Shown: positions 1,207 to 7,903 of the stretch, piece after piece
Position numbering within the stretch: the first letter of the stretch is position 1
How the letters are laid out: each line of letters opens with the position of its first letter
Assembly (NCBI GenBank): GCA_013298745.1
Contig: JAAFIT010000039.1
Location: forward strand, 1-11,301
DNA: 11,301 bases
From: Sphingomonadales bacterium
GTDB lineage: Bacteria > Pseudomonadota > Alphaproteobacteria > Sphingomonadales > Sphingomonadaceae
Direction: 5' to 3'
Made by a program: the position numbers and the translations under genes
The notes under the pieces: model-generated
Told to the model about the DNA's origin: nothing
The model's database searches: none
What the model saw: only the letters and a program-made list of their open reading frames with translations

Positions 1207-1321
1207 TCCCGCAGAGGGCCTGCAGTGAGTCGTGTGCTGGCCGTTGCGTCGGATGCGCGTCAATCGAATGTCATTGCCATTTCGCGGCGCTGCGGCCGCG
1301 GCTTCAACAAGGAGCTTCTCC

Positions 1322-4300
1322 ATGCGTCATCTGCGTCTCGGTTGTGCCATTGCCGCACTCATTGCACCGGCTGCTGCGCTTCATGCCCAGGAAACCACGT
1401 CGAGCATCCGTGGCCAGGTGACCAACGATGCCGGCGCCGGCATTGCAAACGCCACGGTCGTCATCACCCACACGCCTTCGGGTACCCGTTCGACCCAGAC
1501 CACCGATTCGGATGGGAACTTCAACGCGTCGGGTCTGCGCCTCGGCGGCCCCTACACCGTTGCCGTGACGGCGTCGGGCTTCGATCCTGCTTCGGAAGCC
1601 GTTGGCAACCTGCTCGCCGGCACGCCGCAGCGCGTCACGGTGTTCATGGCCCCGGCGGGTCAGACGATCACGGTGACCGCGGGCCGCACGCGTTCGGTGA
1701 TCGCGATCCAGACCGGTGCCGCCACGTCGCTGAACGCGCGTGACATTGCTGGCGTTTCGAACGTCAACCGCGATATCCGCAACCTTGCGGCGCGCAGCCC
1801 GTTGGTGACGCTTGATCCGACCAACGGCGGTGCCATCTCGATTGCCGGGCAGAACAACCGTTTCAACCGCTTTACCGTCGATGGCGTGGCCTTTGGCGAT
1901 CCGTTCGGGCTTGAAGCCGGCGGTCTCGTCTCGACGCGCGGTCCGGTGCCGCTTGATGCCATCGGCGAATTCACCGTCGAAGTCGCGCCGGTCGATGTCC
2001 AGCAGGGCTTCTTCCAGGGCGGCACGATCAACACCCAGCTGAAGTCGGGTGGCAATGATTTCTCGATGCTCGGTGGCTTCTACTACAGCAGCGACAGCCT
2101 GCGCGGCACCCGTGCTGCTGGCCTGACCCGCACTGGCGAATTCAGCTCCAAGATCTTCACGGCACAGGTGACCGGCCCGATCATCAAGGACAAGCTGTTC
2201 TTCGCCGTCACCTATGAAGGTCTGCGCGATACCGTGCCGTTGGCAATCAGCCCCGACAACCTCGGCATCACCCAGGGTCAGATCGATCAGATCGATCAGA
2301 TTGCCGATACGGCCTATGGCTATGACACGCTGGGTGTCGCCGATGGCGTCAAGGAAAACGATGACAAGCTGGTCGCCAAGGTCGACTGGAACATTGCCGA
2401 TGGTCACCGCGCCAGCGCCACTTATATCTACAACAAGGGTAACGCTCTTGCCGGTCAGACCGGAACCGGTCAGCTCACCGCGACCAATCCGAACTTCCAG
2501 CTGAAGTCGAACAACTACGACCAGGGCGCCGTCAACCACTTCGGCATCATCCAGTTCAACGACCAGTGGACGGACAATTTCTCGACCCAGCTGCGCGCCT
2601 CCTATGCCGATTACACCCGCTTACAGGTGCCCTATAATGGCCGTGACTTTGGTGAATTCCGCACCTGCCTTGCACCGACCTCGAGCCTTCCAGCACTGAC
2701 CTGCCCTGCGGGCGTTCGCCAGTTGACCTTTGGTCCAGATATCAGCCGTCAGGCCAATGAGCTTGAATCGACGTCGCTTAACATCGAGTTCCAGGCATCG
2801 TTGAAGATGAACAACCACACGGTGAAGTTCATCGCTGAACGCCGTACCCAGGAGATCCGCAACGTCTTCGCCCAGCGCGTTTCGGGCGCCTGGTATTTCG
2901 ATTCGGTCGCCGATCTGCAGGCCAAGCGCGCCAGCGAACTCGATTTCGCCACGCCGATCCGCGGCGGTATCGATACCGTCACGGCGCTCTTCGAAAACAA
3001 CAGCTGGACCTTCGGCTTGCAGGATACTGTCGATGTCACCGACGATCTGACGGTTATCGCCGGCTTCCGCTGGGATCTGTTCGATACCCCTGACCAGCCG
3101 TTCTTCAACCAGGCGTTTGTTGATCGCTTCGGCTTCGCCAACAATGCGACGCTGAACGGTCGTCATCTGTTCCAGCCGCGCCTTGGCTTGAACTGGAAGG
3201 CATCGGATCGCCTCGCGGTTCGCGGTTCGGCCGGCCTGTTCGGCGGCGGGAGCCCCAACGTCTGGATTTCGAACAACTATTCCAACCCCGGTCCCACGCT
3301 TGGACGTGCGCAGGTTCGCCGCGTTCCCGGCGTCAATGGCGCCGCCGATACTTACACGGTGTCTGGCGTCACCGGTCTGACGGCGGCACAGCAGAACGCC
3401 ATCGGCGCGGCCGCCCTGAATAACGTTTCAGGCGGCACGGGTGTGCCGTCGACGCTGGTGGATGCCATTCGCACCACCGGAACCGCGCAGTCGCCAACCA
3501 ACGCGCTCGATCCGAACTTCGAAGTGCCCTCGACATGGCGTGTTTCGGCGTCGGTCGACTACACCGCCGATTTCGGCGGGCTTGGTGACGATTGGAAGCT
3601 TGGTGCCGACGTGATCTGGTCGCGTGTCAACAATGCGCTGGAATGGACCGATATCCGCTCGGTTCCGACGGGTATCCTGCCCGATGGCCGGCCGCGTTAC
3701 TCGGTGCTGCCCGGTCAGGGCACCACGACCAACACCGACATGCTGCTCACCAACGTCGATGTGGGTTATAGCTGGAATATCGTCGCGCGCTTCGACAAGC
3801 GCTGGGAAAATGGCTTCCGCCTTGGCGGCGCCTATACCTTCCAGCGCGTCAAGGATCAGAATCCCGGCACCTCGTCGGTGGCCTTCTCCAACTATACCAA
3901 CGCCGCTGCGACCGATCCCAACTTTGCCGCTTATGGCACGTCGAACTATCAGCGTGACGATGCGTTCCGCCTCGTCGCCGGCTATGATGCGGCGCTGTTC
4001 GGCGACAACATGACCCGCGTCGAACTTTTCTTCAACAGCCTCTCGGGTCAGCGGTTCAGCTATACCTTTGCCGACCAGGCTTCGGGCAACAATCGCTCGG
4101 CCGTGTTTGGCGTGACCGGCACCAACAACCGCTACAACATCTATGTCCCGAATGTGTCTTCGGCCACCGCCGACCCGCGTGTGGTCTATGCTCCGGGCTT
4201 TGATTTCGCGGGCTTCCAGAACTTCATCCAGAATTCGGAGCTCAACAAATATCAGGGCCAGATCGCGCCGAAGAATATCGGCAAGGCACCGCGCTACAAC

Positions 4301-4591
4301 AAGCTCGACCTGTCGGTCCGTCAGGAAGTGCCGTTCGTTTTCGGCGGCAAGATCGAACTGCTGGCGGATATCGAAAACGTCCTCAACCTCCTCGATTCCG
4401 ATTGGGGCACCATCAAGCAGGTTGCCTTCCCTTACTATGGCACCTTGGCGAACGTGACATGCGGTAACGCAGCCTGCAGCAACTATGTCTATGCCAACCG
4501 TGCCGGCTCGACCTTCGTGCCGCCGGCGCAGGCGGTGAACTTCAACGGCTCGCTTTGGGGCATTCGCTTCGGCGCGCGGGTGAAGTTCTAA
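1322..4591 (+). CDS. TonB-dependent outer-membrane receptor with carboxypeptidase-regulatory-like N-terminus (Oar-like)
   Basis: Outer-membrane active-transport receptor energised by TonB-ExbBD; the ligand is unknown. I chose ATG 1322 (1089 aa) because AAGGAG (1309-1314) lies 7 nt upstream and the protein then opens with a clean signal peptide, residues 1-22, ending ALHA before QETTSS. The frame is open to 1232, but that would put 30 residues before the signal peptide. Residues about 28-115 form a carboxypeptidase-regulatory-like beta domain (IRGQVTNDAGAGIANATV... with DSDGNF). A plug domain follows (about 120-250, including NNRFNRFTVDGVAFGD). The rest is a large barrel ending in WGIRFGARVKF, with the terminal Phe expected of outer-membrane barrels. 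Four cysteines form two close pairs (C449/C461, C1047/C1052), probably disulfides in extracellular loops. The gene stands alone: tRNA upstream, terminator downstream, no transporter partner. The lack of a ligand clue leaves specificity open. Confidence 0.93.
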   Translation: MRHLRLGCAIAALIAPAAALHAQETTSSIRGQVTNDAGAGIANATVVITHTPSGTRSTQTTDSDGNFNASGLRLGGPYTVAVTASGFDPASEAVGNLLAGTPQRVTVFMAPAGQTITVTAGRTRSVIAIQTGAATSLNARDIAGVSNVNRDIRNLAARSPLVTLDPTNGGAISIAGQNNRFNRFTVDGVAFGDPFGLEAGGLVSTRGPVPLDAIGEFTVEVAPVDVQQGFFQGGTINTQLKSGGNDFSMLGGFYYSSDSLRGTRAAGLTRTGEFSSKIFTAQVTGPIIKDKLFFAVTYEGLRDTVPLAISPDNLGITQGQIDQIDQIADTAYGYDTLGVADGVKENDDKLVAKVDWNIADGHRASATYIYNKGNALAGQTGTGQLTATNPNFQLKSNNYDQGAVNHFGIIQFNDQWTDNFSTQLRASYADYTRLQVPYNGRDFGEFRTCLAPTSSLPALTCPAGVRQLTFGPDISRQANELESTSLNIEFQASLKMNNHTVKFIAERRTQEIRNVFAQRVSGAWYFDSVADLQAKRASELDFATPIRGGIDTVTALFENNSWTFGLQDTVDVTDDLTVIAGFRWDLFDTPDQPFFNQAFVDRFGFANNATLNGRHLFQPRLGLNWKASDRLAVRGSAGLFGGGSPNVWISNNYSNPGPTLGRAQVRRVPGVNGAADTYTVSGVTGLTAAQQNAIGAAALNNVSGGTGVPSTLVDAIRTTGTAQSPTNALDPNFEVPSTWRVSASVDYTADFGGLGDDWKLGADVIWSRVNNALEWTDIRSVPTGILPDGRPRYSVLPGQGTTTNTDMLLTNVDVGYSWNIVARFDKRWENGFRLGGAYTFQRVKDQNPGTSSVAFSNYTNAAATDPNFAAYGTSNYQRDDAFRLVAGYDAALFGDNMTRVELFFNSLSGQRFSYTFADQASGNNRSAVFGVTGTNNRYNIYVPNVSSATADPRVVYAPGFDFAGFQNFIQNSELNKYQGQIAPKNIGKAPRYNKLDLSVRQEVPFVFGGKIELLADIENVLNLLDSDWGTIKQVAFPYYGTLANVTCGNAACSNYVYANRAGSTFVPPAQAVNFNGSLWGIRFGARVKF

Positions 4592-5468: not shown

Positions 5469-5565
5469 GGCGGCCTGTTTGCCGCAGTTTGCGACACCGC
5501 CCGATGTTGGGGGTGCAATAATCCGCCGCAGCGCCTAATTGAAAGCATCGTCAAGGAGTCGTTCC

Positions 5566-6546
5566 GTGCCCGAAGTGCAATCCTCACAGCCCCGCAAGAC
5601 CCAGGTTCTCATCATCGGTTCGGGCCCGGCGGGCTATACAGCCGCCATTTATGCCGCGCGTGCGGCGCTGGCACCGGTGCTGATCGAAGGCTTGCAGCCG
5701 GGTGGCCAGTTGACCATCACGACCGAAGTCGAAAACTGGCCCGGCGATGTCACGGTGCTCGGCCCGAACCTGATGGTACGCATGGCCGAACAGGCCCGCC
5801 ATGTCGGTGCCGACCTGGTTGCGGACATTGTCACGCGGGTCGATTTTTCAAAGCGACCATTCCTGGTCGAATGTGACTCGGGCGCCAGTTTCCTCGCGGA
5901 AACCGTCATCGTCTGCACCGGCGCACAGGCGCGTTGGCTCGGCCTGCCCAATGAAACGAAGTTTCGGGGTTTCGGTGTGTCGGCCTGCGCCACCTGCGAT
6001 GGCTTTTTCTTCCGCGGTAAGACGGTTGCCGTGGTTGGCGGCGGCAACACTGCTGTCGAGGAAGCGCTGTTCCTCACGAATTTCGCGTCGAAGGTGCACC
6101 TTATCCACCGCCGCGATGAATTGCGCGCCGACAAGACCAACCAGGCCCGGTTGCTCGCCAACCCGAAGGTTGAAACCCATTGGAATGCTGAAATTGCCGA
6201 TGTCGAGGGTACCAGCGACCCGTTGACCGTGACCGGCGTGGTGCTGCGCGATACGGTGACCGGTGCCACCCGCCCGCTTGCGTGCGATGGGCTGTTCATT
6301 GCGATCGGCCATGTCCCGGCGACTGCGTTGTTCGCCGGCCAATTGGCGATGGACGATGAAGGTTATCTGATCACGGCGCCGGATTCGACCGCAACCTCGG
6401 TCCCCGGCGTGTTTGCCGCCGGCGACGTCAAGGACAAGCTTTATCGCCAGGCGGTGACCGCCGCCGGCATGGGTTGCATGGCAGCGCTGGAGGCAGAACG
6501 TTTCATGGCCCATGGCGCGCATGCCTTGAGCGAAGCCGCCGAATAG
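5566..6546 (+). CDS. trxB: Thioredoxin-disulfide reductase (NADPH)
   Basis: Cytosolic flavoenzyme that passes electrons from NADPH through FAD and a redox cysteine pair to thioredoxin. I start it at GTG 5566 (326 aa) because AAGGAG (5553-5558) sits 7 nt upstream; the frame extends to a TTG at 5539 that lacks such a site. The FAD dinucleotide fold is at the N-terminus (VLIIGSGPAGYTAAIYAARA), with GGQLTITTEVENWPG after it. The active-site pair is SACATCDG (C141 and C144). The NADPH fold is VAVVGGGNTAVEEA followed by HRRDELRADK, the NADPH-type arginine motif, not the divergent motif of ferredoxin-linked homologs. The C-terminal FAD segment is GVFAAGDVKDKLYRQAVTAAG. Length and motifs are complete. 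The LysR gene follows after 18 bp and is probably co-transcribed; the Lrp gene is divergent. Confidence 0.97.
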   Translation: MPEVQSSQPRKTQVLIIGSGPAGYTAAIYAARAALAPVLIEGLQPGGQLTITTEVENWPGDVTVLGPNLMVRMAEQARHVGADLVADIVTRVDFSKRPFLVECDSGASFLAETVIVCTGAQARWLGLPNETKFRGFGVSACATCDGFFFRGKTVAVVGGGNTAVEEALFLTNFASKVHLIHRRDELRADKTNQARLLANPKVETHWNAEIADVEGTSDPLTVTGVVLRDTVTGATRPLACDGLFIAIGHVPATALFAGQLAMDDEGYLITAPDSTATSVPGVFAAGDVKDKLYRQAVTAAGMGCMAALEAERFMAHGAHALSEAAE

Positions 6547-6564: not shown

Positions 6565-7485
6565 GTGAACCTCGATTGGGAAAAGTTGCGGCTGTTCGAG
6601 GTCGTCGCCGAGGCCGGCAGCTTCACCGAGGCGGCACGGCGGCTACACATGAGCCAGCCAGCGCTGTCGCGGCAGATCGGGGCGCTGGAGGATCAGATCA
6701 GCGCCAAGCTGTTCCATCGCCATGCGCGCGGGCTGGCGATGACGCATGAGGGTGAGCAGTTGCGCGCTGCCACCGCCGACATGCAGGATCGCCTCGAACG
6801 CGCTCGCGACGCCATCGATGCGTCGCGTGATCGGCCGACCGGCGAGATCCGGTTGACCACGACCGTCAGTTTCGGCTCGACCTGGCTGGCACGGCAACTG
6901 GGCGAATTTCTCGATCTCTATCCCGATATCGTCATCAACCTGATGCTGTCGGACAATGATGTCGATCTGGCCAAGCGCGAAGCCGATGTCGCGATTCGCT
7001 TCCATCCGCCGCTGCAATCCGAACTGGTGCAGAAGCCGTTGCTGCCGATCCGCCATTATCTCTGCGCGGCGCCAGAGTATATCGCCCGGCATGGGGTGCC
7101 GCGCAGCGTTGGCGATCTCAACAATCACCGGCTTATTGCCTATGGCGATACGGCGCCGGATTTTCTCAAGGGCATCAACTGGGCGCTCGAACTCGGCCAT
7201 GATGGCGCGCCCCGCGTCGCGGCGCTGTCGATCAACAACAGCTATGGTGTTTTGCAGGCCGTGGAGGCGGGGGCGGGCATCGCAGCGCTGCCCAGCTATC
7301 TCATCCGCTTCTCGGGCAAGGTGAGGGTCGTGCTGCCCGAGATCGAAGGCGCGGTGTTCCGCACCTTCTTTACCTACCCCGCTGAATTGAAGCGCTCGCT
7401 TCGGGTCGCGGCACTGCGTGACTTTCTGGTGGGCCGGATGACGGCAGCCAATCTCGATATCGATCGCTATGCCCTCAGCGCGTAG
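6565..7485 (+). CDS. lsrB: LysR-type regulator resembling LsrB/VtlR
   Basis: LysR-family regulator of 306 aa. The N-terminal winged HTH (about 4-62) reads KLRLFEVVAEAGSFTEAARR, then SQPALSRQIGALED and LFHRHARGL; a linker helix leads to the effector-binding domain (about 92-300). It resembles the Rhizobiales LsrB/VtlR proteins as I remember them (DW-KLR start, LFHRHARGL, LTTTVSFG, FLDLYPDI, HRLIAYG, TYPAELK, RDFLVG), and like them it lies beside trxB; the symbol is an orthology inference. Start GTG 6565 follows GGGAAGGGG at 6551-6559. The protein has one cysteine (C167), so an OxyR-like intramolecular disulfide switch is excluded. Its stop is 6 bp before two palindromes with LysR-box geometry and a predicted sRNA, which suggests the sRNA is its target. 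The effector is unknown. Confidence 0.9.
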   Translation: MNLDWEKLRLFEVVAEAGSFTEAARRLHMSQPALSRQIGALEDQISAKLFHRHARGLAMTHEGEQLRAATADMQDRLERARDAIDASRDRPTGEIRLTTTVSFGSTWLARQLGEFLDLYPDIVINLMLSDNDVDLAKREADVAIRFHPPLQSELVQKPLLPIRHYLCAAPEYIARHGVPRSVGDLNNHRLIAYGDTAPDFLKGINWALELGHDGAPRVAALSINNSYGVLQAVEAGAGIAALPSYLIRFSGKVRVVLPEIEGAVFRTFFTYPAELKRSLRVAALRDFLVGRMTAANLDIDRYALSA

Positions 7486-7491
7486 CGCGCA

Positions 7492-7510
7492 CTATGCACC
7501 AGGTGCATAG
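7492..7510. promoter_or_regulatory. Palindromic operator 1 (LysR box candidate, distal)
   Basis: Perfect 19-bp palindrome CTATGCACCAGGTGCATAG centred on base 7501. The inner 15 bp contain T7495-N11-A7507, the LysR-family box. It lies at about -66 relative to the inferred sRNA start, where LysR regulators place their recognition site. No T run follows, so it is not a terminator. Confidence 0.65.
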
Positions 7511-7523
7511 CTGCGCTGCAATA

Positions 7524-7538
7524 TTGTGCACTGCACAA
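7524..7538. promoter_or_regulatory. Palindromic operator 2 (LysR box candidate, promoter-proximal)
   Basis: Perfect 15-bp palindrome TTGTGCACTGCACAA centred on base 7531, containing T7525-N11-A7537. Its centre is exactly 30 bp (about three helical turns) from palindrome 1 and falls at about -36, overlapping the inferred -35 box. That is the activation-site position used by LysR regulators. Confidence 0.6.
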
Positions 7539-7560
7539 CAAGCGCTACCAAGCCTAGATA
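7532..7560 (+). promoter_or_regulatory. Inferred promoter of the anti-SD sRNA
   Basis: TGCACA (7532-7537, four of six matches to TTGACA), a 17-bp spacer and TAGATA (7555-7560). Transcription would begin near 7567, just before the first hairpin at 7570. The poor -35 box overlapping an operator suits a promoter that needs an activator. Confidence 0.45.
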
Positions 7561-7566
7561 TGACCT

Positions 7567-7770
7567 GTGGCCGTCGCTGACGGCGCACATTCGCTTCGTC
7601 CTCCCCCGACGACCGAATGCTTGATTGCCGGTCACTCTCCCCCCTTGAGACCGGCAATCGATCCGCACGCGGCGCTGCTCCATCCCCCCCGGAGCCCCCC
7701 GCATGAATGCGGATCACCATTTTGGGCCGGGACCGTGCGCTTTTGAGCTGCCGGTCCCGGCCCTTTTTTT
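7567..7770 (+). ncRNA. Predicted trans-acting sRNA with three C-rich anti-Shine-Dalgarno loops
   Basis: No protein gene is credible here, but the stretch folds into consecutive hairpins. H1 7570-7584: GCCGTC/GACGGC, loop GCT. H2 7588-7619: CATTCG/CGAATG plus TCGTC/GACGA, loop CTCCCCC (7601-7607). H3 7623-7659: perfect 11-bp stem GATTGCCGGTC/GACCGGCAATC, 15-nt loop containing CTCCCCCC (7637-7644). H4 7677-7695: GCTCC/GGAGC, loop ATCCCCCCC. A 12-bp terminator stem with seven T's ends it. Perfect pairing in the stems with C-rich single-stranded loops is the architecture of alphaproteobacterial anti-SD sRNAs. Position next to an LsrB/VtlR-like gene matches the AbcR (alpha-r15) sRNAs of Rhizobiales, although AbcR RNAs are shorter (about 110-120 nt), so this may be a functional analog and not a homolog. 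The 5' end is inferred from the -10 box; the 3' end is secure. Confidence 0.72.
7724..7770 (+). terminator. Strong intrinsic terminator of the sRNA
   Basis: Perfect 12-bp stem GGGCCGGGACCG (7724-7735) with CGGTCCCGGCCC (7752-7763), a 16-nt loop, and seven T's (7764-7770). It is plus-strand only, since the opposite flank has no matching A run beside the stem. It insulates the lysR/sRNA unit from the tRNA gene that begins 46 bp later. Confidence 0.95.
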
Positions 7771-7815
7771 GTGGCCTGTGCCGGCTCGCTGCGCTACCGA
7801 AGCCCGAGCTTTTCC

Positions 7816-7890
7816 GGGCCTGTAGCTCAACGGTAGAGCCGGCCGCTCATAACGGCTAGGTTGGGGGTTCGAATCCCTCCGGGCCCACCA
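7816..7890 (+). tRNA. tRNA with CAT anticodon (elongator Met or Ile2), CCA encoded
   Basis: Cloverleaf: acceptor GGGCCTG (7816-7822) with CGGGCCC (7880-7886), then ACCA (7887-7890). D-arm GCTC/GAGC with a short loop. Anticodon stem GGCCG/CGGCT around loop CTCATAA, with anticodon CAT at 7848-7850. T-arm GGGGG TTCGAAT CCCTC. It is not the initiator: position 1 pairs with 72 (G-C) and the anticodon stem lacks the three G-C pairs. The pairs C4-G69 and C5-G68 match those described as TilS determinants in E. coli tRNA-Ile2, so the CAT may be modified to lysidine and decode AUA, but elongator Met cannot be excluded. It converges on alaC, whose stop is 13 bp away. Confidence 0.95.
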
Positions 7891-7903
7891 AACTCCTGCA
7901 ATC

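Follow-up and report, generated by a model that had tools for sequence, protein, structure and literature searches.

Introduction

Two families of rhizobial small RNA, AbcR and NfeR1, are the closest described counterparts of the RNA analysed here, and they are cited below from parts of the papers concerned. In A. tumefaciens the gene order is trxB-vtlR-abcR1-abcR2 and AbcR1 is VtlR-dependent (PMC7486931); the same source reports that mutation of lsrB in S. meliloti left AbcR unchanged, a result that a later paper contradicts for AbcR1 (PMC8844928). In PabcR1 this later paper locates the LsrB consensus, GCAT-N3-TG-N3-T, between -61 and -49, along with tandem T-N11-A motifs. NfeR1 is also activated by LsrB (PMC10746234), and the family to which it belongs, ar14, comprises three hairpins with hypervariable stems and a motif in every loop (PMC7143759). 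For both NfeR1 and AbcR, blocking of translation has been shown (PMC10746234, PMC8844928, PMC7143759).

We have analysed an 11,301-nucleotide stretch of sphingomonad DNA (contig JAAFIT010000039.1, hereafter the window), in which positions 7567-7770 very probably encode, judging from sequence comparison, a genuine small regulatory RNA found in certain bacteria of fresh water and soil. The RNA is NfeR1-like in design and AbcR-like in place, and lies below the cut-off of both. It looks like an undescribed cousin of the well-studied RNAs of plant-symbiotic bacteria; the openly accessible literature, consulted in part (subscription papers were outside its scope), yielded no description of it.

Results and discussion

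Architecture of the locus

The source genome is fragmented (2.96 Mb, 525 contigs, 79% complete) and carries one copy of the RNA. The gene order is an Lrp/AsnC-type regulator (minus strand), trxB, a LysR gene, the RNA, a tRNA (CAT), an LL-diaminopimelate-type aminotransferase (minus strand) and a class I phaC, and the named relatives of the window by LysR identity include Polymorphobacter and Sandarakinorhabdus. The RNA starts on the same strand as lysR, 82 nt past the lysR stop. The trxB product is recognised by TIGR01292 (NCBIfam), which scores 390.9 bits against the residues of 5587-6543 (cut-off 343.45). A separate 1119-residue reading frame at 1232-4591 is outer-membrane-receptor-like by eye, and the residues of 1322-4588 matched no family in NCBIfam. 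The features are:

5539..6546, plus strand: trxB, thioredoxin reductase, upstream of the LysR gene (open reading frame; NCBIfam TIGR01292)
6565..7485, plus strand: LysR-type regulator, likely the sphingomonad counterpart of LsrB/VtlR and the activator
7493..7517, plus strand: LsrB/VtlR-type box, an ATGC-N7-GCAT palindrome with GCAT-N3-TG-N3-T at 7505-7517 (consensus from PMC8844928)
7524..7538, plus strand: second palindrome, TTGTGCACTGCACAA, of T-N11-A type (pattern complete in 17 of 36 copies)
7555..7560, plus strand: -10-like hexamer TAGATA (A/T-rich hexamer in most copies)
7567..7770, plus strand: predicted small RNA, about 204 nt (fold z -7.4; covariation)
7570..7584, plus strand: 5' hairpin GCCGTC/GACGGC (helix 1; 100% of cells paired, 11 sequences)
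7588..7619, plus strand: hairpin 1, loop CTCCCCC at 7601-7607 (81.4% of cells paired; 6 of 11 pairs changed on both sides)
7623..7659, plus strand: hairpin 2, 11-bp stem, loop C-tract CTCTCCCCCCTT at 7635-7646 (helices 3 and 4; 10 of 12 pairs changed on both sides)
7660..7715, plus strand: hairpin 3, outer and inner stems, loop ATCCCCCCC at 7682-7690 (helices 5-7; 9 of 14 pairs changed on both sides)
7724..7770, plus strand: intrinsic terminator, stem 7724-7763 followed by T7
7816..7890, plus strand: tRNA, anticodon CAT, downstream neighbour (ARAGORN; Rfam RF00005)

The segment 7540-7790 has a folding energy of -118 kcal/mol; 200 dinucleotide shuffles average -84.8 (sd 4.5), and none of them equalled the real sequence (z -7.4). 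A preliminary description of this DNA had reported three hairpins with C-rich loops, and these are found where it placed them (CTCCCCC, ATCCCCCCC and CTCTCCCCCCTT); its perfect middle stem also agrees with the letters, which read by eye as GATTGCCGGTC/GACCGGCAATC, 11 of 11 paired. The terminator, given there as 12 bp, has a longer stem of 17 pairs with one small interruption, and the description had overlooked the 5' hairpin at 7570-7584, the outer stem GATCCGC/GCGGATC that encloses hairpin 3, and the regulator. A simple pattern scanner applied to 7400-7900 detected neither a sigma-70 promoter nor a terminator.

Relation to known RNA families

At the Rfam cut-offs only tRNAs are found in the window and in 36 related sources, and none of the families to which the preliminary description had pointed (AbcR/ar15, ar14, suhB) reaches threshold at the RNA. 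The ar14 model (RF02344) scores 17.8 bits in the window against a gathering score of 58.8. It gives sub-threshold matches at the RNA in six of ten relatives' loci (28-50 bits, best 49.5); among 41 genomes of relatives six have a match (best 52.9) and none exceeds 58.8, three of the six being the LysR-linked locus (L109-L111) and three not beside LysR. In design the RNA nevertheless resembles ar14/NfeR1 of Rhizobiaceae, Brucellaceae and Phyllobacteriaceae, having three hairpins of unlike stems with an anti-Shine-Dalgarno-like C-rich motif in each loop, and the layout, earlier judged apparently different from NfeR1, is the same three-hairpin layout as in the published accounts, as far as cited here (PMC10746234, PMC7143759). 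It differs in that those loops share the motif CCUCCUCCC, whereas here they hold C5-C7 tracts (CTCCCCC, CTCTCCCCCCTT and ATCCCCCCC) and no identical motif, and in that NfeR1 is 122-123 nt long while this RNA has about 204 nt and an extra 5' hairpin.

In place it resembles AbcR1 and AbcR2 (ar15, RF02345), lying directly behind trxB-lysR with the same type of box, here at 7505-7517, at a similar distance. The link to AbcR is closer than the conceptual likeness noted before, comprising a common trxB-lysR neighbourhood and regulator-box type. Unlike AbcR, which has two motifs and a tandem arrangement, the RNA has three loops and a single copy. AbcR is further characterised by Hfq binding and by its repression of transporter messages. 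The ar15 model has no match at any listed score in 7450-7812 (gathering score 40), and it is uninformative across the class, with 0 of 115 genomes over its cut-off and one below it.

The RNA is also C/U-rich like SuhB/mmgR (RF00519), SorX and SorY, which are much shorter; the cited part of one report describes SuhB of Sphingopyxis granuli, a sphingomonad repressor, as a 61-nt RNA (PMC6563040). The window RNA region has no suhB match (up to E 10; gathering score 41) and no SorX match, and SorY reaches 13.5 of 111 bits. Sub-threshold matches to SorX, SorY or suhB lie behind LysR in 16 of 29 other alphaproteobacterial loci, and one such match of 28.4 bits occurs in a sphingomonad locus (L026). 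Three tandem SorX-like sub-threshold matches were seen behind LysR at L067:2591-3196. Two hairpins with C-rich loops align with ar7 (RF02342) and 6C (RF01066) at 27.2 and 19.7 bits, the cut-offs being 60 and 47. Some 2 kb downstream of the RNA, six of ten loci (L012, L015, L019, L021, L026 and L031) carry sub-threshold matches to the Caulobacter small RNA CC2171 (51.9-69.1 bits, cut-off 75), possibly another conserved RNA.

Conservation and covariation

A search with the LysR protein gave 35 named sphingomonad loci, and the 480 nt 3' of each gene were compared. Covariation was assessed in 11 sequences (the window, the L003 copy and nine loci) over a 43-pair structure, of which 26 pairs show compensatory change and 65 cells are changed on both sides. 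In all, 88.1% of cells pair, a measure biased in the structure's favour because hairpin 1 was set by hand from the window fold and the remaining pairs came from RNAalifold on the same sequence-based alignment. The covariation score is 0.406 against 0.210 in shuffles, none of 500 shuffles reaches any of five measures, and slid partners are all much worse than the real pairing. Another alignment, A2, was set aside, as RNAalifold on A2 missed hairpin 2. The preliminary description would have been contradicted by relatives whose stems do not covary and whose C-rich loops are lost; in the relatives compared the stems covary and the loops are kept. A structured small RNA at 7567-7770 is strongly supported by this comparative evidence.

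Individual loci depart from the pattern. Hairpin 1 is lost in L010, and in L029 and L033 the RNA sits further downstream, with other DNA between it and lysR. One of the 35 loci, L032, has no such RNA in the 2.5 kb examined and no C-tract in a hairpin loop behind LysR. Polymorphobacter glacialis (G252) has a second, near-identical RNA copy, together with its box and palindrome (L003:1553-1708, minus strand; the same place as L076), which lies away from lysR and trxB beside a receptor-like reading frame.

A sequence search of the family gives matches in 7 of 298 genomes at E<=0.001, five of these matches being 24-45-base stretches without structure, and given this weakness LysR synteny was used to find copies. 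LysR homologs themselves occur in 91 of 144 genomes of the class (E<=1e-40) and in 38 of 298 of the family (E<=1e-60; 15 of 96 genera). Our model R1, run on whole genomes with stricter filters, finds four of the 298 at E<=0.01, near relatives only, although LysR is present in 38, so that R1 cannot prove the RNA absent. At the same threshold R1 matches 26 of the 35 named loci, nine of the 26 being training sequences, and two of 29 outgroup loci (L060 and L061), both behind LysR. The first of these lies outside the family, and at L060:2546-2687 there is an RNA behind LysR that has three hairpins with C-loops as well as the complete box pattern.

C-rich loops and possible targets

Behind LysR, C-tracts lie in at least two hairpin loops in 34 of the 35 named loci and in at least three in 22, counts that take in terminator loops. 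The earlier suggestion that chance would not place C-runs in the loops is borne out: 93 of 120 tracts downstream of LysR are in loops, terminator loops again included, compared with 117 of 428 in other parts of these loci and 230 of 744 after shuffling of the flanks, though as the 35 loci are related the p-values are not independent. The window alone has three of the four tracts of the region in loops, against 5 of 17 in its remainder. In the 29 outgroup loci the enrichment is not significant (40/118 versus 90/351, p 0.10). A perfect-stem hairpin counter was dropped, having missed most copies.

The loop letters vary by lineage. Polymorphobacter-type loci have CTCCCCC-like loops and Sandarakinorhabdus-type loci CTCCTCCCC-like ones; loci of the Sphingosinicella and Sandaracinobacter types, most of them with two main hairpins, have loops resembling CTCCCTCCCTCCC. 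Three C-loop hairpins are a feature of the window and its near relatives, and many more distant loci have two. In five Sandarakinorhabdus-type loci (L019, L020, L021, L026 and L027) the loop of the terminator is C-rich as well (ATCCCCCC, CTCCCCC or similar), possibly a further seed.

We propose that 7567-7770 would be the gene of a small RNA of about 204 nt with its own promoter and terminator. As the box, its spacing and the neighbourhood suggest, the adjacent LysR would bind the GCAT-N3-TG box and adjacent palindrome and activate transcription, and the loops of the three predicted hairpins would display C-rich tracts that are alike, any one of which could pair with the G-rich Shine-Dalgarno sequence of target messages and block their translation. 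Given the complementarity of the C-tracts to such sequences and the rhizobial precedent, our best guess is that the RNA represses the translation of several messages, and an LsrB/VtlR-controlled, multi-seed translational repressor of the AbcR/NfeR1 kind is the reading we consider probable.

The window's own genome has 34 sites of GGGGGAG-N3-9-ATG against one for the reversed pattern. Thirty of the 34 were examined; 20 reading frames were scanned with Pfam and 12 have a family, including two TonB-receptor plugs, hydrolases and peptidases. In the genus (seven genomes) the ratio to the reversed pattern is 345:32 for GGGGGAG and 373:62 for the comparison word CGGGGAG. Enrichment of GGGGGAG before ATG is equal in 20 genomes lacking LysR (848:143) and in 31 of the 38 that have it (1426:263), so no target can be named. 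This genome-wide test of target co-adaptation, bearing on the Shine-Dalgarno masking that the preliminary description had claimed, is therefore negative, and by analogy masking by the C-loops is plausible.

The missing target signal would also fit a sponge, an RNA that would use its repeated C-rich loops to titrate a second RNA or an RNA-binding protein rather than to contact message start regions, and several equivalent loops in one molecule would suit titration. However, the letters of the loops change from lineage to lineage, and the cited parts of the literature report message repression for NfeR1 and AbcR, the RNAs that look nearest; we regard a sponge as unlikely.

Probable promoter and regulator

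Boxes were aligned without gaps in 36 copies, those of the window, L003 and 34 loci. Of these, 32 have GCAT-N3-TG and 19 have the full GCAT-N3-TG-N3-T, compared with a shuffling expectation of 1.7 of 36 for the box pattern. The pattern scan first gave 33 and 21, but the sole match in L044 and the full match in L020 fall within the LysR gene, whence the lower counts; box positions in L022, L029, L034 and L044 were assigned via near-matching letters. The box of the window, GCATAGCTGCGCT at 7505-7517, lies inside the ATGC-N7-GCAT palindrome. Counting from the box start, a TGC at +27 to +29 is invariant (36/36), an A/T-rich hexamer follows at about +49 to +52 in most copies, shifting by one to three bases, and most copies have the start of the 5' hairpin at about +64. 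A start some six bases past the hexamer, predicted here at about 7566-7568, puts the box at about -61 to -49, matching the published PabcR1. In L029 and L033 the box is beside the RNA and not beside lysR, and the second copy in P. glacialis keeps its box though the locus is without LysR or trxB. Given the rigid spacing and a box that stays with the RNA, we take the locus to be an RNA gene that has a LysR-dependent promoter of its own.

The same observations bear on whether the RNA could instead lack a promoter and arise by processing of the lysR or trxB-lysR message at its 3' end. Such an origin would be in keeping with its position on the lysR strand, 82 nt past the stop, and with the negative promoter scan, but it accounts neither for the rigid box-to-RNA spacing, nor for a box that moves with the RNA in L029 and L033, nor for a second copy whose locus has no LysR or trxB, and is quite unlikely.

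As to the regulator of the proposed LysR-dependent promoter, the best solved chain for the window LysR is 9hh1 (E 5e-79; the next has E 3e-26). The A. tumefaciens LsrB structure paper, in the part cited, contains the code 9HH1, and its cysteine numbering fits the aligned chain (PMC11975290). By best chain match, not phylogeny, the protein is thus closest to solved LsrB; it is also trxB-adjacent, as are its homologs in all 35 named loci and in 25 of 29 other alphaproteobacterial loci. It is likely the sphingomonad LsrB/VtlR and the activator of the RNA, a link that is the main addition to the preliminary description. The redox cysteines C144, C236, C244 and C273 of A. tumefaciens LsrB are V, V, A and T in the window LysR; among the sequences aligned, C144 occurs in 5 of the 36 sphingomonad and 2 of the 29 other LysR proteins, and C236, C244 and C273 are absent from all 36 and all 29. 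B. abortus LsrB is described in the same source as having two of the four (PMC11975290). With these residues mostly absent the signal sensed by the LysR may differ, and thiol sensing may be particular to rhizobia.

That the region is a structured repeat or a cluster of terminators with no regulatory function is very unlikely: GC-rich hairpins are common near terminators, and 117 of 428 C-tracts elsewhere in the loci are also in loops, but such a cluster would leave unexplained the covariation with loops kept, the fixed promoter layout and the recurrence of the region downstream of this one gene in 34 of 35 loci. An 81-residue protein encoded on the minus strand at 7475-7720, where the frame is open and an SD-like pattern precedes an ATG at 7588-7605, is extremely improbable, as neither the gaps of one to four bases between relatives nor the compensatory stem changes befit a reading frame.

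Implications

The small regulatory RNA proposed here adds a covariation-backed RNA, with no Rfam family at threshold, to bacteria in which few small RNAs have been described, and names an LsrB/VtlR-type LysR as its likely activator. It also joins two rhizobial RNA families that have a common regulator but are filed apart. AbcR and NfeR1 might be two descendants of one ancient RNA beside LsrB/VtlR, of which the sphingomonad form, with its AbcR position and NfeR1 body, keeps both halves, a tentative idea that we hold to be doubtful. If it were true, LysR, box and loop RNA as a module would be older than the redox cysteines of rhizobia and older than the roles in symbiosis and virulence, and seeds would drift by lineage while the design, one motif per loop on free stems, is kept. 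With its loops preserved as a set on drifting stems, such an RNA offers a natural case for redundant seeds, and what LsrB/VtlR controlled before symbiosis and virulence becomes testable in harmless, culturable strains.
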